A DNA stretch of 64,000 nucleotides from Gammaproteobacteria bacterium (GTDB lineage Bacteria > Pseudomonadota > Gammaproteobacteria > Arenicellales > UBA868): assembly GCA_014239255.1 (NCBI GenBank), contig JAAZZE010000003.1, positions 1 through 64,000 of the forward strand, written 5' to 3'. Positions within the stretch are counted from its first letter, which is position 1. The number at the start of each line of letters is the position of its first letter. Under the pieces are notes generated by a model. The model searched no databases and was not told where the DNA came from. It was given only the letters and a program-made list of their open reading frames with translations. The position numbers and the translations under genes were made by a program. Positions 1 to 12,032 of this stretch are shown one piece after another.

Positions 1-3000
1 GCGCCAAGCTCGGTTCGCCGGAGCACCTTGCCACAGCCGTAGCCTAATTCAGCCAAGGCACTGGTTCCGGGAAAGCAGCCCTCGCTAACATCTGGCGTAT
101 AAAGCGGTGCAAACAACACCTTATCGCTTATCTGTATTTTATTAGTAACCTTCTCGTCTTTTCCCAGGTTGACATACCATCCAAGATCATCCTCTTTGGG
201 GCAGGACGCCGCTTTATCGGTCACGTTTTTCAGGTCGCTGATGGTCGGGTTGCCCGGATCCCCAAAAAGAGGGAATTTCTTGTCTTTTATTCCAAAAATA
301 CGGTTTTGTATGGTCGATTGTGATAACTCGAGTTTGTCCTGATTGCCTGTGCCAAAATAAAGCCAGACTTTTTTATCACTATCTTCGCCACTATCTGTAG
401 TTACGGTTACAGGCATAAACGACGCGCGTTGATTAACGTTATTTCCTTCGCCATCGAAAATAAGATCATATGCATAAGGCTTGCCGCTATCGGTGAAATT
501 AAATTTAAAAAGCTTGCTCTCCATATCAACCACATAAGAAATAGCGCCCTGATACGTTGCCTTTGGCGTTGTATCCGGAGTGACTGCAGTAAATTGAGCC
601 GGCACTGAATTAATGAAGCCACCCTTTGTATCCGGCAAATCAAGGCGGGAACGCCTCCTGCCCGCGGTAACAAGCTCAATGAGATAGGCTGCAGATCCAT
701 ACTCTTGCGATTCCGATCCATTAAATCCACCGCCAATTATGGCAAGCCATTTTGGTGACGTTGTTGCTAAGGGCACCAGATTAATGGTTGGGGTAGACCA
801 CGCCTGGCCTAATTTCGAATATTCAAATTCGCTAGGAATACTGCCATAGTTGTTCTCGGTTAAATTACCAGTTGGGCCCCAATGACGGACAACCCGGTTG
901 ACCGGGTCATTGGATAAAGCAAAAAGAAACTTAGGGTTTAAAGGGTTGGTGATGTCTAACGCAAAATATCCATACCCGTCCCGACCAAGCCCCGTGATCA
1001 GTATGGTGCGCCAATGCCCTCCCCTTCCGTGATCAAAGTAAATATCCCTAACAGCGGGTGATCCATCAACCCCATATATAGGGATCGTGGTGTTGGGCAC
1101 TGAAGTGGTCATCTGGCGCAAGGCCGGCAGGATATTAGGCGGCACAAAACCCCATAATTCTTCGCCGGTATCGTCTCTGAATGCGTGGAGCATTCCATCG
1201 TTGGCTCCAACATATACAACCGTGGGCCGACTGACGTTCGCCTCGAAAAATTCCTGATAATTATTAGCTTTCTTGTAGTATTCTTCTGATTTGGGGTTGC
1301 CTGCTTGTTTGGTATTAATCGCGGCGGGTGGCCCCACAATAGCCATTTCCGAGTGATAGATGTCACCAAGCTTCCACTCTCGTTGATCGCCCACCTGTAG
1401 ATCAATGTCTTCATCGTAAGAATCAGTGCCACGAATGAACCCGATCAACTGGGCGGCCTTACTATCGGACGGTATGCTAGCCCCCTCATACAATAGTTTT
1501 TTCAGCCCAGCCACATTGCTGGGGGTAAAATTATTTAGTCCGTCAGGGACTCCCGCATCGTATGCCACAGTCCAGATCCGCCTTGAATCTGCATCCTTAA
1601 GGTTCAGCTGCGCCCCTGCCTCCCAGACCACGCTACCAACCGCGCCCGTATCGGAATCTAATGAATACTTGGTTAACTTACCCCTCCACTGACCGTTTTC
1701 GGGGATAGTAAAGCCCGATTGATAGATATGATCGCCCGAGGCTGACGGAATCACAGGCGCGGTACCGGTATAGCGGAGATCTGATTTTTGAGCTTTTGAA
1801 ATAAAACGCATCAACGTGTCGTGCAGCTCGACCTCATTATCCGCATAAAGAGGTGATAACGGATGGCTTCCGCCGGCTTGCGAGAAACTCTCGTAGACAT
1901 CACTAACTCTGGAGTCATCAGAAGAAACGTCGAAACCCACAACAAGGGATTTAACATCCAGATCACGCAACAGCCTGGCTGCATAAGGATCTGGGCTGCG
2001 GCCACCCCATTCGCCATCGCTCAGCACAATGATAAAGTTTCTTTGGCATGGCTCCTCCGGGTCAATCGGGCCTGGTGTAAAACCCGCTGCACGATTTTCG
2101 AAGTAGTCCTTCGCAAGTGACATACCCACCTCTAGATTAGTCCCCCCACGCGGAGTTTTACCGAAAGCGCAATTGGTCCCGCAATACTCGGTCACCATCG
2201 GTACAATTTCCTCAGCTCCGCCCGGTGAAATGCCTACCGCCATCTTGGCAGCCGTGGACCAGACTAAAAGCCCATAATTAACTTTCTTATTTAGTTCCTC
2301 ATTTTGCAGAAGTCTTGTAAGGACGCATTTAACTGTCTCCCTTCGGCTTTTACTCTGCATCACCTGCGTGATAAATTTTCCGTTTTTGTCATATTTCTTA
2401 AGATACTTGGGAAGATACGGGTTTTTATTCCCACCAACCAGGTAAATATTACCCTCGGGGTCTGAGCCCATTCCCTTTGGATAGGTAACACCGCCAAGAG
2501 GGCCGCAGGCGGGCTGCTTTGGCGCAAATCGCTTTATGAAAGTCCCGGAGTATGAGTACTTGCCAACGTGGCCCCCGCAAGAGGGCTCCGTCCATTTTTT
2601 GGTTTTTGGATCGCGAACAGCGCTCCCAGCGTAATCGGCCTCTGCTCCAAGGATATAAATACCGTTGGCAGTGGCTTCGATATCGGTGCCGCCTAGCGCC
2701 CACCAGGTGTCTTCTTCTTCGCCGGTCTCTTTGTTATAGACCCGAACGGGATACCCCCGCTTGCAGTAATCATGAATGCCCGCAATTTTGCCTGGATAAC
2801 CACGGCCAGAGGCATAGGGGTAGGACGTGTCAGAAACGATATAAACACTGTCATCGTATACAGCAAGCCCTTTAGGGTAATACCCTTTACCCGGGTCGCC
2901 TTTATATGTAGGCTCTATCGCAATTGGCCATTCGCCAAGAAGAGTTCCAGATGGGTCGAGCTTTCTCCAAAGAAAAGGGCCTGGTTCTTCCCCCCCAGGA

Positions 3001-3668
3001 CTGCAATCAACTTCCTGCCCTTTAGTGCGTAACGCTGTTACGTATATGTTGTTTTTTGAATCAATATCAATGGCAAGAGGATTGGGAGTTGAAAAGGACT
3101 TAACGTGAACACCCCTGGCATCAAATTTGTGTATTTTACTGGTCTTACAATGGGCCAAATAAAGGTTGTCATATTGGTCGATCGCAATCCTACTGGGGAT
3201 ATGTGGTCCGTCTGGATCCCCGGCATAATTTAAGGAAAACCCATCCCCATAATCCTTAAGCCAGGTTCCAGCGGAGTTGTATTTTCGAAAGGGTTTGGCA
3301 AGGGGTGAAGTTTTTTGGCCGTAACGCGAAATCGAAGCTCCATGTGCGAGATGCCAGCTGCCATCCCCAGACCCGGCGAAATCCATAGGCATAGTCTCAG
3401 GCGCTTTGATCCGCTTAGTAGAGTTATTCATGCTCGATGAGTTATCAATCGATAGTAAGATATTCGCCGGGATAGACGAATCGACTCCAGCGCCTGGCGG
3501 TGGCTCCTTGGCGCCATAGCTGGCAGGTGCTATCAGCAAAAAGGCAATTAGCGCCATGGCAAAATAAAATTGCGCTGGCGCTTTATGCTGAACCGCCTTG
3601 GGCAGCACTAGAGCACGACTAAACTGTTCGGTTGCAAAACGGCTCAACTTGGCATTTGCCTTAGACAC
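1..3668 (-). CDS. pilY1: PilY1/PilC-family type IV pilus tip protein, 3'-truncated by the window edge; N-terminal VWA domain with an internal NHL-like propeller region
   Basis: Minus-strand frame (codons ending at positions divisible by 3) is open from an upstream stop at 3737-3735 to the left edge, so it is missing from the ORF track. Translation includes ILLSIDNSSSMNNS (DxSxS MIDAS), RGGTNLEVG, RNFIIVLSDGEWGG, and PilY1 propeller segments such as VVYVGANDGMLHAFRDDTGEELWGFVPPNILPALRQ and GVDGSPAVRDIYFDHGRGGHWRTILITGLGRDGYGYFALDITNP. It follows pilX. The GTG start at 3668 is tentative. Confidence 0.93.
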   Translation of the reverse strand, partial: MSKANAKLSRFATEQFSRALVLPKAVQHKAPAQFYFAMALIAFLLIAPASYGAKEPPPGAGVDSSIPANILLSIDNSSSMNNSTKRIKAPETMPMDFAGSGDGSWHLAHGASISRYGQKTSPLAKPFRKYNSAGTWLKDYGDGFSLNYAGDPDGPHIPSRIAIDQYDNLYLAHCKTSKIHKFDARGVHVKSFSTPNPLAIDIDSKNNIYVTALRTKGQEVDCSPGGEEPGPFLWRKLDPSGTLLGEWPIAIEPTYKGDPGKGYYPKGLAVYDDSVYIVSDTSYPYASGRGYPGKIAGIHDYCKRGYPVRVYNKETGEEEDTWWALGGTDIEATANGIYILGAEADYAGSAVRDPKTKKWTEPSCGGHVGKYSYSGTFIKRFAPKQPACGPLGGVTYPKGMGSDPEGNIYLVGGNKNPYLPKYLKKYDKNGKFITQVMQSKSRRETVKCVLTRLLQNEELNKKVNYGLLVWSTAAKMAVGISPGGAEEIVPMVTEYCGTNCAFGKTPRGGTNLEVGMSLAKDYFENRAAGFTPGPIDPEEPCQRNFIIVLSDGEWGGRSPDPYAARLLRDLDVKSLVVGFDVSSDDSRVSDVYESFSQAGGSHPLSPLYADNEVELHDTLMRFISKAQKSDLRYTGTAPVIPSASGDHIYQSGFTIPENGQWRGKLTKYSLDSDTGAVGSVVWEAGAQLNLKDADSRRIWTVAYDAGVPDGLNNFTPSNVAGLKKLLYEGASIPSDSKAAQLIGFIRGTDSYDEDIDLQVGDQREWKLGDIYHSEMAIVGPPAAINTKQAGNPKSEEYYKKANNYQEFFEANVSRPTVVYVGANDGMLHAFRDDTGEELWGFVPPNILPALRQMTTSVPNTTIPIYGVDGSPAVRDIYFDHGRGGHWRTILITGLGRDGYGYFALDITNPLNPKFLFALSNDPVNRVVRHWGPTGNLTENNYGSIPSEFEYSKLGQAWSTPTINLVPLATTSPKWLAIIGGGFNGSESQEYGSAAYLIELVTAGRRRSRLDLPDTKGGFINSVPAQFTAVTPDTTPKATYQGAISYVVDMESKLFKFNFTDSGKPYAYDLIFDGEGNNVNQRASFMPVTVTTDSGEDSDKKVWLYFGTGNQDKLELSQSTIQNRIFGIKDKKFPLFGDPGNPTISDLKNVTDKAASCPKEDDLGWYVNLGKDEKVTNKIQISDKVLFAPLYTPDVSEGCFPGTSALAELGYGCGKVLRRTELG

Positions 3669-3734: not shown

Positions 3735-4298
3735 TTAATATTCATTGGCCTGGCCCACATCATTTCCTCCTTCGGACGGGCCTCCAGCTGTGATCGATGC
3801 AATTACTTCTAAATTGGTACGGGCTTGTTTTGGGCCGACTCCGCTAGATAGAATTGTATAAATATATTTGGGGCCCGAAGCAGGCAACGTTGCGGTTAAC
3901 GTAATGCTGCAGAAGTATTCATGCTTGGCCATTCTTCTTTGAAATTTCAGCGCCCTGACAGCTGAGCTCTCACCAGTTACCCTCCAGTCATCCATACTAG
4001 GGTTCGCTGCACCAAGAGCTGCACTGCCAATCCGATGGCAGACCTCGCCAGGTGGGTCTATAGTAATGCACGGTACACCTAACTCCGATTCAGCATCTAG
4101 CCATCGGACTGCTGCATCTACACAGGCTTCTGCCGAATACAGCGTCTCAGATCGGTCCGTATGGGCCTCTATCTGATCAACACTTCGGTTGCCGATATAA
4201 AAAAGCCCCATCCCCATTGTTGTAATGACCAAAGTGATAATCAATGAAACTATAAGAATTGCACCTTTTTGACCGCTGAGCTCGGGAGGCTGGTTCAT
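3735..4298 (-). CDS. pilX: PilX-like minor pilin / pilus assembly protein
   Basis: 187 aa; N-terminus KGAILIVSLIITLVITTMGMGLFYIG typical of PilX; sits between pilW and pilY1 with overlapping ends. Confidence 0.85.
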   Translation of the reverse strand: MNQPPELSGQKGAILIVSLIITLVITTMGMGLFYIGNRSVDQIEAHTDRSETLYSAEACVDAAVRWLDAESELGVPCITIDPPGEVCHRIGSAALGAANPSMDDWRVTGESSAVRALKFQRRMAKHEYFCSITLTATLPASGPKYIYTILSSGVGPKQARTNLEVIASITAGGPSEGGNDVGQANEY

Positions 4299-4996
4299 AG
4301 CGTCAGATTTCTCACGGCGACACTGGTAGAGAATTCGCGGCGCCTGAATCGATCGGTCGTTTCAAGCGTAGAGTCGCCCGGATAATGTGCGCCTCGTTGG
4401 TACGATTTTTCACGGCTGAACTGCTGCTTGGTACGTAATGCGAGGTAGATTTCGATCAGTTTTTTAGGGTGCGCTGCACCGCCGGAATAGACCAGCTGAA
4501 GGTCCTCGATATAGTCCGCCATCGCATCTTCAGATCCCTCCTTTACCTGGCTTGCTGGCGCGATAATGTCGGTCTTCTTGAAAAGCCTGCCTCTGGTGCC
4601 TCGTGTTCCCACATGATCGCTTACCCAGTAACGGATTCTGAGTCTTTGGCTGGAAATGTTCGTTTTTTGGTGATCGTAAATGATCGTCACTTCATCGCAG
4701 CAGCCATTGCCAGCCCCTTGGGTTATAGAAATAGCATCGGCATCAGTAATCGCACCGTGTTCTGGCGCTCCTAACGGTGTCCACCATTCAGATCCTGCCA
4801 TCCGGATATCGCGTTCCATGATTTTTAAAACATTGCGACCCGTCTGCCCAATCACCGTAGTGTCTCGTATTTTTGTGTATTGCTTATCAACAAGATCATA
4901 GGCAATCAAAAGACTCGCCAAAGCAATAGCACTTACTGCCGTTGAAACCAGCACTTCAACCAGAGTGAATCCTTGATCAGGGCGTATCGGGCGCAT
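4295..4996 (-). CDS. pilW: PilW-like minor pilin
   Basis: Prepilin motif QGFTLVEVLVSTAVSAIALASLLIAYD; operon position. Start set at MRPIRPDQGFTLVE inside the 245-aa ORF. Confidence 0.85.
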   Translation of the reverse strand: MRPIRPDQGFTLVEVLVSTAVSAIALASLLIAYDLVDKQYTKIRDTTVIGQTGRNVLKIMERDIRMAGSEWWTPLGAPEHGAITDADAISITQGAGNGCCDEVTIIYDHQKTNISSQRLRIRYWVSDHVGTRGTRGRLFKKTDIIAPASQVKEGSEDAMADYIEDLQLVYSGGAAHPKKLIEIYLALRTKQQFSREKSYQRGAHYPGDSTLETTDRFRRREFSTSVAVRNLTL

Positions 4997-5474
4997 CAAA
5001 TGTTCTTTTAGCAAAAATCGTGTTCTTACCATCGGCGCTGGTCAACTCGACTGTTAATATGTTTACCGTTCTGGTTCCCACAATTTTTTGGGTGATGTTA
5101 ATTTTTCGGATGTCATCGGTTTTGGTCTCTCCGGATTCTGCATTCAGGTAACTGCACCATCGTTTTAAATGCGCTAACTGATCCGCTTTTCCGGCAGACG
5201 TACTCAAACCTGCACATGCACTAAGGTTTTTGCCTGTATATTCTGTGATATTTTCTTTATCGCCAACCACTGTCTCAATGATGTCGGTAACGATCATGTC
5301 AAGGCGATCGCGTTGCTGTGCTTTTTGAATAGCCTCATCCGAAGCGGCGATAAAACCAAACACAGCCGTAATACCAATCGCGGTAATGACTACTGAGATC
5401 ATTACCTCAACGAGGGTAAAGCCGTTTTCTGTCAACGCAGATTCAGCAGCTTCTTGATTCACTTTACAATTCAT
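4977..5474 (-). CDS. pilV: PilV-like minor pilin
   Basis: Prepilin motif NGFTLVEVMISVVITAIGITAVFGF; operon position. Start set at MNCKVNQ inside the 223-aa ORF. Confidence 0.8.
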   Translation of the reverse strand: MNCKVNQEAAESALTENGFTLVEVMISVVITAIGITAVFGFIAASDEAIQKAQQRDRLDMIVTDIIETVVGDKENITEYTGKNLSACAGLSTSAGKADQLAHLKRWCSYLNAESGETKTDDIRKINITQKIVGTRTVNILTVELTSADGKNTIFAKRTFDAPDTP

Positions 5475-6054
5475 CGAACGATTTGGTTGTCGCATTAAGT
5501 TTAGTAGTCTCAAAAAACCCGGTGGCCCCGAATATCTGAGTCTTGTAGTGAATGGTCTTATCACCACAAGTCGCTGTAACAGAAATCGTCTTAGGAGTCG
5601 CGGTCCCGTCAGTATTGAAGCAGACTTTGAAACCAGTAGAACCCGCATATTCAGAGCGATCTGGAATCAGATCATACTTATTTAAGTACGCTTCATGATC
5701 TGCAATTACCGCACCCTCGTCAGTTAAGGGTAGATGAAGATAACCATCCGCCTCACAATCTGCTGACATCCCGTGCATAACCCATACATTTGGATGCACC
5801 TGCTTCGTCGATTCAAAGTACGCTTGGGTGGTACGATTAAGACTGATTGCCTGGGCGCGCAGGGACTGGAGAAACCCGTTCAAGTCGTCAAAATCGTTAC
5901 GAACTTTGGTCGTGCAATTCCAGCCGCCAAGATTTAAAAATGTAGTTGAGACTAATGCCACCAGTACGATCACTACTATAAGTTCTAGCAAAGTAAACCC
6001 GCGTTCTTTGCGAGTGGATCTGACCTGCGCTTTCACATTGGACTCCTCAGACAC
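5464..6054 (-). CDS. fimT: FimT/GspH-type pseudopilin
   Basis: Prepilin motif RGFTLLELIVVIVLVALVSTTFLNLG; first of the fimT-pilVWXY1 run. Confidence 0.8.
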   Translation of the reverse strand: MSEESNVKAQVRSTRKERGFTLLELIVVIVLVALVSTTFLNLGGWNCTTKVRNDFDDLNGFLQSLRAQAISLNRTTQAYFESTKQVHPNVWVMHGMSADCEADGYLHLPLTDEGAVIADHEAYLNKYDLIPDRSEYAGSTGFKVCFNTDGTATPKTISVTATCGDKTIHYKTQIFGATGFFETTKLNATTKSFDEL

Positions 6055-6102: not shown

Positions 6103-7104
6103 TTATTGCATTTCGATTTGGCCGGAGCCTTTGAGTTGCTGGATCGCAGCGTCCATCGTGACCATTCCGTCGCCTCTGGCGGTCTGCATAACACTTTCTA
6201 TCTGGAAGATCTTATTTTCACGAATTAGATTACGTACCGCCGGATTACAGACCATAACCTCGAATGCGCCGACACGACCTCCTCCGGTCTTGCGAAACAA
6301 TTTCTGTGTCATCACCATTCGTAGAGATTGAGATACCTGAGACCTGACCTGGTCTTGTTGTTCAGGCGGGAATACATCAATAATTCTATTGATTGTATTT
6401 GGAGCGCCGGAGGTATGCAGGGTGCCAAACACCAAATGGCCAGTCTCGGCGGCGGTTAATGCAAGTTGAACAGTATCTCGATCTCGAAGCTCTCCAACCA
6501 GGATCACATCTGGATCTTCACGCAAAGAGGCACGCAAGGCATTCGCAAATGATTTAGTGTCTCGTCCAACTTCACGCTGGGCAACAATAGACTCTTTGTT
6601 GGTGTGAATGTATTCAATTGGATCTTCAATCGTCAGAATATGCTCATTACGGTTGGTGTTGATATGATCAATCATGGCCGCCAACGAAGTGGATTTGCCA
6701 GATCCGGTCGGACCTGTAACCAGAACCAGTCCATTCACCTGATTGGCCATATCCTGAGCTACGGCTGGCAATCCAAGATCGAGCATGGTTGGAATCTCAG
6801 TCTCGATCTTGCGCAAAACTGCTGCCTGCCCGGTTGACGTATGGAAGAAGTTCGCCCGATAACGCAGGTCGCTTATGACAATCGCCAGATCAAATTCCCT
6901 ATCCACCTCGAAGGTCTCGCGGGCTTCATCCGATTCCAGGCTCTCGTGTATAAAAACAGCCAACTCTTCGGCACTTACCGTATCGTCAGCAAATGTGGCG
7001 ATCTGCCCACTGACTCTGATCGATATTGGCCTATCTGCATGAATATGAAGATCCGATAGGTCATATTCTTCAGTGTAGGATGCTATTCTGTTCTCTACGG
7101 TCAT
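6103..7104 (-). CDS. pilT: PilT-family twitching motility retraction ATPase
   Basis: Walker A GPTGSGKST; LVGELRDRDTVQLALTAAETGHLVFGTLHT; C-terminal AVRNLIRENK (AIRNLIRE-type motif). Confidence 0.93.
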   Translation of the reverse strand: MTVENRIASYTEEYDLSDLHIHADRPISIRVSGQIATFADDTVSAEELAVFIHESLESDEARETFEVDREFDLAIVISDLRYRANFFHTSTGQAAVLRKIETEIPTMLDLGLPAVAQDMANQVNGLVLVTGPTGSGKSTSLAAMIDHINTNRNEHILTIEDPIEYIHTNKESIVAQREVGRDTKSFANALRASLREDPDVILVGELRDRDTVQLALTAAETGHLVFGTLHTSGAPNTINRIIDVFPPEQQDQVRSQVSQSLRMVMTQKLFRKTGGGRVGAFEVMVCNPAVRNLIRENKIFQIESVMQTARGDGMVTMDAAIQQLKGSGQIEMQ

Positions 7105-7385: not shown

Positions 7386-9026
7386 ATGGCAAATAAACTC
7401 CTTGGTGCAATAAAAGCTCGACTAAGCAAATTAATTGTTCAGCAGGAAGATGTCGTCGGCGTAGACATCATGCCCGGTTACATCCGCATTGCGCAACTCG
7501 AGCAATCCGGTAAACGCTGGACCGTCACAAAAGTGGGTTATCGATACGTTCAGGGGCAAATCGATACCAATGATCTAAAAAATAACCCCGATGGTTATTC
7601 CAGCAAACTGCAACAGGTTTGCGAGAAAAATAAGGTCTCCACATCAAACGCTGCTGTATCAATCCCTGTAAGCAGCGCCGTTATTCAGGTTGTTAACCTG
7701 CCGTTGATGTCCGACGAGGAACTAGAAGAGGCCATCAAAACAGACTCGCTTTGGGATAACGTTGTGCAGTTGCCTGATCCTATAGATGAATATTCTATTT
7801 TTCACCAGGTTATTAAGCGGCACAACACTGAAAACCTGATGGACATTTTGTTTGTGGCGTCCAAGTTAAGTGATATCGAAGACTACATGGGCATAGTTCG
7901 TAGCGCCGGGCTCAATCCGGTTGTGGTGGACGTTCGCTGCTTTAGTTTACGCAACGCGTTAGATCTGAAAAAAGATCTCAACTTTAAACAACCCATTGGT
8001 CTTTTGGAGTTCGGCCCGTTTGAAAATTTTTTGTTGATCATTGATAAAGAAGGTGCGCCTTTTATTGCAGAGATATATATATCGGATGTTGACAAGGAGC
8101 ATCTCCTAAACACCAATCCGACTGACGCCGGCGGTGACAACACAAAGTTATTTGAACGTTACGCGATGCAGGTGTCTCAAGTCGTTTCCAGTTACCAATC
8201 CAAATACAGTTCGACTATTGCAAAAATTTTTGTTGCCTCTACCCTGCCCTCTATCGATGACGCAATTGCACAGTTCCAGATTGGCTTGCCAAATAGCCGT
8301 CTCGAAGCATTCGATCCATTAGCCGATGTAAGGGTGCCGGCTAATATCGAGCAAAAAGTCGCCGCAGAGCCCAACTCATCGATGTTTGCCGCGGTACTTG
8401 GATTAGCAACGCGCAAACTCGATATTTTCGGTTACTACCAGTACGTTACCGGTGTCAACAATATCAATCTGCTGCCCAATCGCGATGCGATAAAAGCTAA
8501 AGAAAAAGCGAAAGCTTATTCCAAATACATCTTGATTCTGGTTGTGCTCATCGTGCTTGCAGGCGCGGGCTGGTCATTTTTTGATGTCAGTGAAAAAAAG
8601 AATTCGGTTACTGAAAAAATGGCCGTCTATCATGCTGCGGCCAACGAGCGCGATACAAAGCTTGCAACACTGGATAAGCTTGTCCGACAGATTCGAAAGA
8701 TTTCCGGACTACTAGAGGCAAGCGCAAGTCTCGAGTCTAACCAGGCATCTATGTATGAACTGCTTACTGAGATCAATAACTCGGTAATCGAGGGGATTGC
8801 TTTAGATTCGATCGCCTACGATGGCAATGCGGTTACCATTATCGGAAGGTCACTCAGCGACCAGAATATTATTGAATTCAATAGTAAGCTCGACAGCAGC
8901 TCGCATATTCGCAGGGCATCCTTACAGACCATGTCTGTTTCAATGGAGGATGGCCTGGCATTGAAAAACTTTTCTTTAAGATGCACTCTCGAACCTCTTG
9001 CCAACAAAACGGAGTCGGAGCAGTAA
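7386..9026 (+). CDS. PilM-PilN fusion protein: actin-like PilM N-terminal part and PilN C-terminal part with INLLP motif, TM helix and periplasmic domain
   Basis: Single 546-aa ORF. PilM part VVGVDIMPGYIRIAQLEQ..., then GYYQYVTGVNNINLLPNRDAIK (PilN N-terminal signature at about residues 360-364), TM YILILVVLIVLAGAGWSFF, PilN periplasmic region. Directly followed by pilO. Confidence 0.9.
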   Translation: MANKLLGAIKARLSKLIVQQEDVVGVDIMPGYIRIAQLEQSGKRWTVTKVGYRYVQGQIDTNDLKNNPDGYSSKLQQVCEKNKVSTSNAAVSIPVSSAVIQVVNLPLMSDEELEEAIKTDSLWDNVVQLPDPIDEYSIFHQVIKRHNTENLMDILFVASKLSDIEDYMGIVRSAGLNPVVVDVRCFSLRNALDLKKDLNFKQPIGLLEFGPFENFLLIIDKEGAPFIAEIYISDVDKEHLLNTNPTDAGGDNTKLFERYAMQVSQVVSSYQSKYSSTIAKIFVASTLPSIDDAIAQFQIGLPNSRLEAFDPLADVRVPANIEQKVAAEPNSSMFAAVLGLATRKLDIFGYYQYVTGVNNINLLPNRDAIKAKEKAKAYSKYILILVVLIVLAGAGWSFFDVSEKKNSVTEKMAVYHAAANERDTKLATLDKLVRQIRKISGLLEASASLESNQASMYELLTEINNSVIEGIALDSIAYDGNAVTIIGRSLSDQNIIEFNSKLDSSSHIRRASLQTMSVSMEDGLALKNFSLRCTLEPLANKTESEQ

Positions 9027-9031
9027 TCGTT

Positions 9032-9751
9032 ATGGACCTTGACGTTGACATCGGAAGCTTTTTAAAAGGTCTCACAAAAAGAGGTCAATCTGGGGATGGG
9101 GCTGGAGCTGGAGCTGGGGCTCAATCGAGCCCATACCTTAAGCAATTGGTTGCCGGCATCCTCATTGCGTTACTGATTGGAACTTATCTTTATTTCTTTT
9201 ATCTTCCCGAGCAAAAACGCATCAACGAAATGCAAGCAATGATCGACAGCACTGACCAGATTAGAGCTGAAATTTTGCTTCTTGATCAAGAGATTTTACA
9301 AAACCAGGCTAAACTTAGTGAAGGTAATGCCCGGTTCGACGAGTTAAACCGACTATTTCATAATAAGCAGGAACTTGAAGATCTTTACCGAAATATCAGT
9401 CTGTTAGCGTTAACCTACGAACTGCTGGTCGCCAAACTCGAGAAAGGCGGCGAGGTGCCGGTTTTCTCCGATAAACCTCCTATCAGTCAAGGCGAAGGTT
9501 TACCCTCGAAAAAAGAGGTCGCCTTTTACAAAATCAGTGTTCAGTTTGAATTTGTTGGAGACTACCTTGGTTACACTAATTTTCGTCGTGATCTTGCCCA
9601 GCAGAAAAAGATTATTAACATTGAACGCGAGAAAATCACTGTTCGAACTGGGGAAGATGAAGGCGACGGCGGCATAGTAGATATTGCGACTACGCTTTCG
9701 ACCTACCGTTTCCCCGCCTCTGATGCTGACCGCTTCATTACCGACGGGTAG
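9032..9751 (+). CDS. pilO: PilO type IV pilus inner-membrane platform protein
   Basis: One TM (VAGILIALLIGTYLYFFYLPEQ) plus coiled coil and PilO-like domain; order pilMN-pilO-pilP-pilQ. Start at MDLDVDIG inside the ORF beginning 8981. Confidence 0.9.
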   Translation: MDLDVDIGSFLKGLTKRGQSGDGAGAGAGAQSSPYLKQLVAGILIALLIGTYLYFFYLPEQKRINEMQAMIDSTDQIRAEILLLDQEILQNQAKLSEGNARFDELNRLFHNKQELEDLYRNISLLALTYELLVAKLEKGGEVPVFSDKPPISQGEGLPSKKEVAFYKISVQFEFVGDYLGYTNFRRDLAQQKKIINIEREKITVRTGEDEGDGGIVDIATTLSTYRFPASDADRFITDG

Positions 9752-9757
9752 CTCAAG

Positions 9758-10186
9758 ATGAATAGGTGTTCAACCTATATCGGAGCTTGCGCTGTGGTCG
9801 TTTTTTCGAGTCACGCCTTTGCCGGAAACCCATTTAACACCCTTAAAACGCCGCAACAACCGGCCGAAATTGTGGAGCCCGTTAAGGAGCCTGATCTGGA
9901 AAAACCTCCGCTCCAGCGCTGGCCTGTGCACAATTACATTCTCATGGGCATATTGACAACACAAGCGAGCAGCCCCAAGACTAAGCGGGTTGCTATTATT
10001 CGAACTCCGGCCCCTCATTCGCGAACCTATATTTTGCACTTTGGGGACCTTTTGGGCGACCAAGACGGGTACATCAAAGCGTTTGATAGCTCAGGGTTTA
10101 CAGTTGTACAGCGTGGTGAGGACGATGCTCCCGAGGAAGTCCGGCTAAAGGTGCGTAATAGAGGGGCGGAGAAGACCAATGACTAG
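9758..10186 (+). CDS. pilP: PilP type IV pilus lipoprotein/periplasmic protein
   Basis: HNYILMGILTTQ... and GDLLGDQDGYIKAF match the PilP pattern; 3' end overlaps the pilQ start. Confidence 0.88.
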   Translation: MNRCSTYIGACAVVVFSSHAFAGNPFNTLKTPQQPAEIVEPVKEPDLEKPPLQRWPVHNYILMGILTTQASSPKTKRVAIIRTPAPHSRTYILHFGDLLGDQDGYIKAFDSSGFTVVQRGEDDAPEEVRLKVRNRGAEKTND

Positions 10187-12032
10187 GCTTCTGGCAGTTT
10201 TGTTGTCCTCCTTTTTCCTGGCCTCGTGCGCGGTACTCGAAAATCAGGGCATTGTCCTTGAGGATTTCGCTGATCCAGTTACCGATAGTGCTGAGCCTGC
10301 AGTCGTAGATCAGGAGATTGTCCAAGATCTTAATGCTGAGCCTGCAGTCGTAGATCAGGAGATTGTCCAAGATCTTAATGCTGAGCCTGCAGTCGTAGAT
10401 CAGGAGATTGTCCAAGATCTTAATGCTGAGCCTGCCTCAACACCCGTGCAGGTTGACCCAGACCCTACGCCTGTCGAAGAAGTCGCTCTTAATCCAACGC
10501 AGTCTGGTGAAGATGGATTAGGAAATGCGAAGGACGGTAAATGGCCGTTGCTCCAGACTGGTGAAGACGGCTCGTTGATCGAACCAAAACAGTTTGCTAC
10601 TGACAGCCTGGCCAAAGTTGAACGAACCGTTGCTGCCGGACCTGATCTTGAAGACACTTTTGAATCGGGGCTCACCCCACAAAAACGTGAACTTGTCAGC
10701 AGGCAAGAGCCCAAGAACTATATGGATCTCAATGAACAACGAGAGGATTTGTTTCCGATAACGATTAATTTGGATAACGTCGATATACGCGATGCAATGA
10801 CGATGTTATCTGAGGTCATCGGAAAAAATATCCTCGTTGGAGACGAAGTGAGCGGTACGATCTCGGTCCGACTGATTAATGTGCCGTGGAATAAGGCCTT
10901 GGACGCTATCCTCCAGATCCGCACGCTCGCTAAGCATGTTAATGAAGAAGGCACCATCATCCGCATTCACGAGCAAGAAGCGCTTATCGCCCAGGAGGCG
11001 TTCGAACGTCAGCGAAGGTCTGATTTAATTGCCGCTCTAGAGGCAGAAGAAGCGATCGGACCGCTTTTTACCGAGATCTTCCGGCTTTTTTACACCGAAC
11101 CAACCGTGGTTAAAAAAGAACTTCAGGAGGTTCTGGGGATCGGAGAGGACGGCGGCGGCGTCAATGCCTACGGTGTACAAATTGCGATTGACACGCGGAT
11201 CAAGGCCTTGATTATTAAGGGCAACCGTCAGGATCTGGATTCAATTTCCCAACTGATCTCCAAGATTGATGTTCGAACACAACAAGTTCTTATCGAAGCG
11301 TTCATTGTTGAAGCAACCGATGACTTCAGTAAAGAATTTGGCGCACGCTTTGGCGTCTCAGACGTTGGTGTTATCGGCAACCCCAACAGCACCACCAAGA
11401 TCACTAAGGTAACCACTGGAGGCGTTGCGGGATCTCAACCGGATACGCCTGGGGATATCAAACTCGGTGACTTGTCTGGGCTCGCAACTAATTTTGCTGT
11501 TACCGGTGGCGCCGGTGTCGGATTAATGGTTCAAAGTGCAAGCACACTATTAAAAGCAGAGCTCTCTGCTATGGAAAAGCAGGGTTTTTCTAAAATTGTC
11601 TCCAACCCGCGTGTATTTACTCTCGATAACCAGGAAGCGGTTATTATTCAAGGCGATGAAATTCCTTATCAGAGCGCGTCGGAAAGTGGCGGCACGGAAG
11701 TTCAGTTTAAAAATGCCGGCATTAAACTTATTGTGACTCCAAGCATCGTTGGCGATGGAAATATCATTCTTACGGTCTCGGTAGAGAAAAAATCAGCAAA
11801 CACCTCTACCCGGAATCCACCGATCACCTCGCGCTCGATAACGACCAAATTGTTAATTAAGGACAATACTGTTGTTGTTATCGGCGGAGTATTTACCCAG
11901 GAGACGTCCGACGGTGAGGATAAGGTTCCATTTTTAGGTGACCTTCCAGTTGTCAAGCATTTGTTCCGCTTCAAATCTGACAAAGATGTGCGAAAAGAAT
12001 TACTGGTCTTTCTGGCCCCTCGGATCATCTAG
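10179..12032 (+). CDS. pilQ: PilQ outer-membrane secretin
   Basis: ITINLDNVDIRDAMTMLSEVIGKNILV (secretin N domain), QVLIEAFIVEATDDFSKEFGARFG, EIPYQSASESGGTEVQFKNAGIKLIVTP, GDLPVVKHLFRFKSDKDVRKELLVFLAPRII. Confidence 0.95.
   Translation: MTRLLAVLLSSFFLASCAVLENQGIVLEDFADPVTDSAEPAVVDQEIVQDLNAEPAVVDQEIVQDLNAEPAVVDQEIVQDLNAEPASTPVQVDPDPTPVEEVALNPTQSGEDGLGNAKDGKWPLLQTGEDGSLIEPKQFATDSLAKVERTVAAGPDLEDTFESGLTPQKRELVSRQEPKNYMDLNEQREDLFPITINLDNVDIRDAMTMLSEVIGKNILVGDEVSGTISVRLINVPWNKALDAILQIRTLAKHVNEEGTIIRIHEQEALIAQEAFERQRRSDLIAALEAEEAIGPLFTEIFRLFYTEPTVVKKELQEVLGIGEDGGGVNAYGVQIAIDTRIKALIIKGNRQDLDSISQLISKIDVRTQQVLIEAFIVEATDDFSKEFGARFGVSDVGVIGNPNSTTKITKVTTGGVAGSQPDTPGDIKLGDLSGLATNFAVTGGAGVGLMVQSASTLLKAELSAMEKQGFSKIVSNPRVFTLDNQEAVIIQGDEIPYQSASESGGTEVQFKNAGIKLIVTPSIVGDGNIILTVSVEKKSANTSTRNPPITSRSITTKLLIKDNTVVVIGGVFTQETSDGEDKVPFLGDLPVVKHLFRFKSDKDVRKELLVFLAPRII
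10290..10435 (+). repeat. Perfect 45-bp tandem repeat, 3 full copies plus 11 bp, inside pilQ
   Basis: Unit gctgagcctgcagtcgtagatcaggagattgtccaagatcttaat at 10290-10334, 10335-10379 and 10380-10424, then gctgagcctgc 10425-10435; encodes (AEPAVVDQEIVQDLN)x3. Confidence 0.97.

Follow-up and report, generated by a model that had tools for sequence, protein, structure and literature searches.

The VWA domain of PilY1 sits at the pilus apex and is regarded as a force sensor (PMC8806160, PMC9210963), in particular in Pseudomonas aeruginosa (PMC8806160). The VWA domains of Acinetobacter ComC variants contain embedded functional fingers; adhesion, twitching and DNA uptake suffer when the finger is deleted, and the same work put forward as a principle that the VWA scaffold receives lineage-specific insertions (PMC10374093). 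The MIDAS of Streptococcus sanguinis PilB is flanked by arms (PMC8179133). VWA and DUF4114 are the only N-terminal domains named in a survey from 2026 that covers well-studied PilY1 proteins (PMC13190605). Little is known of what PilY1 proteins bind and of the ways in which type IV pili acquire new targets. The analysis described here concerns a PilY1 encoded at the beginning of a 64,000-nucleotide stretch, referred to as the window, of an Arenicellales genome (contig JAAZZE010000003.1), and confirms that an NHL-type propeller is inserted into its VWA domain, which keeps the Thr and Asp of the MIDAS.

The PilY1 gene in its pilus locus

The pilY1 gene is a single open frame on the minus strand (positions 3 to 3668) that starts with GTG at 3668 and runs without a stop to the end of the contig, giving 1222 residues; because the contig stops there, the 3' end of the gene is missing and the last approximately 60 residues of the protein are absent. 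The C-terminal PilY1 propeller (495 to 1370, minus strand) is recognised by PF05567 with 62.8 bits against a cut-off of 28.1. Upstream, in the same operon, lie the minor pilin genes pilX, pilW, pilV and a fimT/U-like gene (3735 to 6054, minus strand), three of the four with N-methylation motifs and GspH matches in Pfam and pilX named by position only, and a pilT/pilU-like ATPase gene (6103 to 7104, minus strand; T2SSE, 168 bits). In reading order, pilY1 closes the series formed by the PilT/U ATPase and the FimT/GspH-like, PilV, PilW and PilX-like proteins, so that the gene belongs to a type IV pilus locus with minor pilins, and a position of its product at the pilus tip can be assumed from the family. 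A divergent cluster on the plus strand (7386 to 12032) encodes a fused PilMN, PilO, a PilP-like protein named by position only and PilQ, with Pfam matches to PilM_2, PilN, PilO and Secretin. The apparent fusion of PilM and PilN yields one protein of 546 residues (7386 to 9026), and the part of pilQ encoding the N-terminal region contains a perfect 45-bp tandem repeat in 3.3 copies (10289 to 10435) that encodes AEPAVVDQEIVQDLN.

The EF-hand-like calcium-loop pattern DxDx[DNSG]xxx[DE] was not found in the window PilY1, of which the last approximately 60 residues are missing, and the same pattern is absent from 8 of 11 other members of the subfamily scanned, two rows of which, from genome G040, are N-terminal halves of split genes. 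With a slightly stricter pattern, a calcium loop was detected in the C-terminal half of 63 of 100 other PilY1 proteins. The loop is thus not universal among PilY1 proteins, and its absence lowers only a claim of calcium control.

An NHL-type propeller between MIDAS motifs

At the end of VWA strand beta1, which directly precedes it in the structural model, lies the first MIDAS motif, D75-N-S-S-S-M80 (3429 to 3446, minus strand). It is followed by 361 residues (residues 81-441; 2346 to 3428, minus strand), delimited by alignment with uninserted relatives from locus L021, and then by RRETVKCVLTRLL, which forms VWA helix alpha1. The remaining VWA domain, from alpha1 to the last helix (1788 to 2345, minus strand), contains the second MIDAS motif with the Thr, GGTNL (2133 to 2147), and the third with the Asp, SDGEW (about 2007 to 2021). 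Hence the N-terminal domain has the motif order DxSxS...T...D together with an alpha/beta fold in the model.

The AlphaFold2 model of the window protein, built from an alignment of five relatives, shows beta1, 24 consecutive strands arranged as six four-stranded blades, helix alpha1 and then the remaining alpha/beta order of a VWA domain. Its mean pLDDT is 64.5, the propeller and VWA blocks lying mostly at 70-94 and low values occurring mainly in loops and beyond residue 570. The six-bladed propeller spans model residues 36-381 (2352 to 3389, minus strand), and a Foldseek search of the PDB with this model returned the NHL propellers of TRIM71, Brat and Thin as top matches (E about 1e-11). From sequence only, a profile of the five relatives matches NHL structures in the PDB, among them Pizza6, PknD and TRIM NHL domains (E 1e-20 to 1e-9), and a single-sequence Pfam scan of the window copy detects an SBBP repeat (26.4 bits, cut-off 20.5). 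Insert homologues of about 40% identity occur in another genome of the window genus; because of these homologues, the 24 strands and the Foldseek and profile matches to NHL structures, the propeller is not a chance resemblance. The propeller of the alphaproteobacterial relative L041 is modelled cleanly (pLDDT about 80-90) and matches the Thin NHL domain at 6e-21; the full-length model of this protein is poor beyond residue 450 (mean pLDDT 51.6).

An earlier note on this DNA, drawn from the letters and reading frames, had described a PilY1 whose VWA domain is apparently split by NHL-like repeats after its DxSxS. The PF05567 match and adjoining minor pilins bear out the assignment, all the motifs that it listed (DNSSSM, the repeats, GGTNL and SDGEW) lie in that order in one frame with the quoted repeats inside the 361-residue stretch, and the model and structure searches agree with its propeller. 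The flanks indeed rebuild a VWA domain, as judged from the alpha/beta order in the model and from a VWA Pfam match over cut-off in L041. The HMM scan that it had proposed succeeded in part: PF05567 exceeds its cut-off in the window copy, but the Pfam NHL threshold is not reached by the single sequence and VWA_2 stays sub-threshold, aligning only from profile position 11, past the MIDAS motif. Both domains are clear in alphaproteobacterial relatives, where NHL scores 74.8 and 63.7 bits and where PF00092 (VWA) begins, in the inserted proteins L041 and L241, at profile position 13-14, past the propeller.

Relatives with the insert in the same loop

A search for related loci returned mostly unrelated NHL proteins, the useful matches being L022, L023 and L041. 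Within the window genus, UBA2996 has two tandem inserted copies (frames of 1211 and 1401 residues) and bin63p has an inserted PilY1 fragment, the contig end falling within the insert. This PilY1 subfamily is also present in the Alphaproteobacteria genome 8_bin.59 (L041) and in six relatives of that genome, with the NHL propeller in the same loop in 7/7 cases, the common boundaries running from about 8-13 residues past DxSxSM to just before alpha1, and DTSGSM and SDGxW are intact in all seven. The genome of L041 (G854) has a single PF05567 gene, which carries the insert and lies in a pilT-fimT-pilV-pilW-pilX-pilY1 operon; a pilus must therefore be able to function with this architecture.

Among subfamily copies with an insert and a full N-terminus, 9 of 10 keep DxSxS and the same nine keep the MIDAS Asp motif, the Thr having been read only in copies that were aligned or printed. 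DxSxS is degenerate in two inserted paralogues, UBA2996b (L022:1449-5651; VENSYYTSM) and bin63p (L023:5752-7200; DVGHKM), the former also being devoid of the Asp motif, and metal binding therefore appears dispensable in some copies.

At least two NHL repeats were found in none of 100 other PilY1 frames from class and phylum samples, a figure to be read as a bound rather than a census, since the choice of frames depended on the PF05567 score, the length of the ORF and the score against the subfamily profile, and some weakly scoring subfamilies are disfavoured by it; one of these frames has a lone weak NHL repeat match outside the region in question. The 387 genomes sampled from the class Alphaproteobacteria yielded only two more genomes with matches resembling the subfamily, in each case truncated or partial. 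In the open-access collection of papers that was searched, none brings PilY1 and NHL together, which is no proof that none exists. The inserted architecture is thus rare, a point that the earlier note had left unverified, yet conserved wherever present, and the further PilY1 proteins with an NHL insert after DxSxS that it had asked about exist in UBA2996, in the bin63p fragment and in all seven alphaproteobacterial relatives. Because a separate lineage, within the alphaproteobacteria, has retained it throughout, the graft looks like a real and undescribed route to a new pilus binding head.

The usual insertion slot of PilY1 and its empty state

G040 (L021), a genome of the same order as the window, encodes two proteins of the subfamily (39-43% identity) that lack the insert. 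Here, DNSGSM runs straight into helix alpha1, RGNRMIDAKAVIKTIV or GNSATSRMAQAKAVINALV, the Pfam VWA model is matched from position 1, and without insert DxSxSM and the Thr are 61-65 residues apart. Both G040 copies (L021:3951-8540 and L021:9154-12233) look split at a common point, ...EVQCWDACGxWP, into an N-terminal and a downstream frame, and at the start of one downstream frame Pfam recognises a cysteine peptidase domain of the papain/C70-like type (28.5 bits against a cut-off of 19).

Ordinary PilY1 proteins with a readable motif (n=55) have a median Met-to-Thr spacing of 246 residues (interquartile 215-280), a value to be used as a distribution alone, since the regular expression stops at the first match that looks like the Thr motif and may go wrong in individual proteins, the Thr having been missed or misplaced in a few subfamily rows. 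Their insertions between DxSxS and alpha1 are large and often rich in Tyr and Trp. Given this median against 61-65 residues without insert, the beta1-alpha1 loop is a general insertion slot of the PilY1 family. In the window copy the spacing is 427 residues. The distance between DxSxS and the other metal residues, which had been taken as an oddity, is consequently not odd, because ordinary PilY1 proteins already carry a median of 246 residues there; what is new is the whole propeller as occupant of the slot. For the same reason the objection that the region is merely the ordinary PilY1 N-terminus does not hold, as the slot is ordinary and its occupant, with NHL in 0/100 sampled proteins, is not.

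Origin, divergence and other NHL positions

The PilY1 subfamily is a single clade (100/100) with a long stem, and the inserted copies fall in two parts of this clade. The tree groups the two uninserted G040 proteins with those of the alphaproteobacteria (support 87/82), but a topology that unites every inserted copy is not clearly rejected (AU p = 0.064). Both one gain followed by loss and two gains are possible; the shared register of the insert would favour one gain. Similarity between inserts is uninformative on this point, since NHL repeats give matches to NHL proteins of every kind.

Pairwise identity of the insert is 33-53% among the seven alphaproteobacterial copies and 35-40% in the window genus, and the blades remain recognisable. 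In the alphaproteobacteria, mean identity is 42% for the insert, 58% for the remaining VWA domain and 56% for the following region, a faster divergence as expected for a ligand-facing part. The window genus shows no such faster change of the insert (38% versus 34% for the remaining VWA domain, n=3).

NHL propellers also occur at other places in PilY1 proteins. In 14 genomes of the window family (G009, G021, G007, G003, G017, G001, G012, G018, G026, G013, G019, G010, G002 and G008), an NHL propeller lies between the VWA domain and the C-terminal propeller of proteins of approximately 1300-1340 residues where complete (L018:3302-7213, L017:397-4425, L048 and others). In G031 and G023 (L045:64-3141 and L059:463-3123) it occupies a later VWA loop, past the second or third strand, where the other PilY1 of UBA2996 (L233) has no NHL. 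The presence of NHL propellers at three PilY1 positions within one bacterial family therefore suggests repeated capture by PilY1 proteins.

Possible roles of the propeller

Five points come from the computations themselves: the propeller, the rebuilt VWA domain, the metal residues being intact, the pilus operon, and the fact that a second class has conserved the arrangement. The favoured reading, to which a probability of roughly two in three is assigned, is that of a type IVa tip adhesin whose VWA beta1-alpha1 loop, beside the MIDAS, is filled by an entire NHL propeller of six blades, the slot thus holding a ready-made binding fold of a type that in other settings binds other molecules. The propeller would most likely be a grafted ligand-binding head: the loop that usually receives lineage-specific insertions in PilY1 would here have been taken by a binding fold, which as the outermost head would bind a ligand, and the VWA domain may form a metal-dependent base beneath it.

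Alternatively, the propeller could be a rigid spacer or cap, and no binding head, that covers or stiffens the MIDAS face and alters the mechanics of force sensing. It does adjoin the metal site in the domain to which force sensing is ascribed in P. aeruginosa (PMC8806160), and the quite different PilY1 positions at which relatives place NHL propellers suit a generic module; however, the intact MIDAS speaks against a permanently covered site and the faster insert divergence in the alphaproteobacteria is more like that of a recognition surface, which makes such a role unlikely. A bolder proposal, distinctly improbable at present, couples the NHL propeller and the MIDAS into one force-sensitive ligand switch, an inside-out counterpart of integrin alpha, with NHL as a recurrent exchangeable cassette at no fewer than three PilY1 positions. 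Slim chances are given to the view that the loop tolerates large insertions and that the NHL propeller is one more neutral, lineage-specific filler without a dedicated role. The median of 246 residues between the MIDAS Met and Thr in ordinary PilY1 proteins, the G040 relative that manages without any insert and the degenerate DxSxS of two paralogues are in line with it, but the full six-bladed domain has been kept in 7/7 alphaproteobacterial members and in the window genus at the low identities given above. An assembly or annotation artefact fusing two genes in a metagenome-assembled contig is rejected, even though all name-bearing carriers are metagenome-assembled genomes, since independent genomes and assemblies share the same boundaries, a continuous frame and homologous sequence on both flanks.

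As a grafted binding head, a binding fold beside a metal adhesion site would be testable and removable, and natural versions with the propeller, without it and with lost metal residues exist. PilY1 heads would then evolve by the capture of whole domains as well as by small loop insertions.

Comparison with known systems

With the PilY1/PilC tip adhesins of type IVa pili, the window protein shares a signal peptide, the N-terminal VWA domain with DxSxS...T...D, the PF05567 propeller and the gene position after the minor pilins, whereas its subfamily differs in the NHL propeller in the MIDAS loop and in the essential absence of the C-terminal calcium-loop pattern. In integrin alpha subunits with an alpha-I domain, a VWA domain is inserted in a beta-propeller and its MIDAS is the adhesion site; the nesting of VWA and propeller and the MIDAS are alike, but the nesting is reversed and homology of the arrangement is not claimed. 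The PknD sensor, TRIM71, Brat and Thin have the same six-bladed NHL fold, in their case outside any VWA domain and with no pilus role. S. sanguinis PilB resembles the window protein as a MIDAS-bearing VWA protein at a type IV pilus with two protruding arms, modules grafted in evolution (PMC8179133), but it is a minor pilin without the PilY1 propeller and its arms are small. The Acinetobacter baumannii ComC variants likewise carry a lineage-specific VWA insertion in a tip adhesin, and deletion of their finger impairs function (PMC10374093); unlike the autonomous propeller described here, the ComC insert is a Tyr-rich beta finger of roughly 90 residues.
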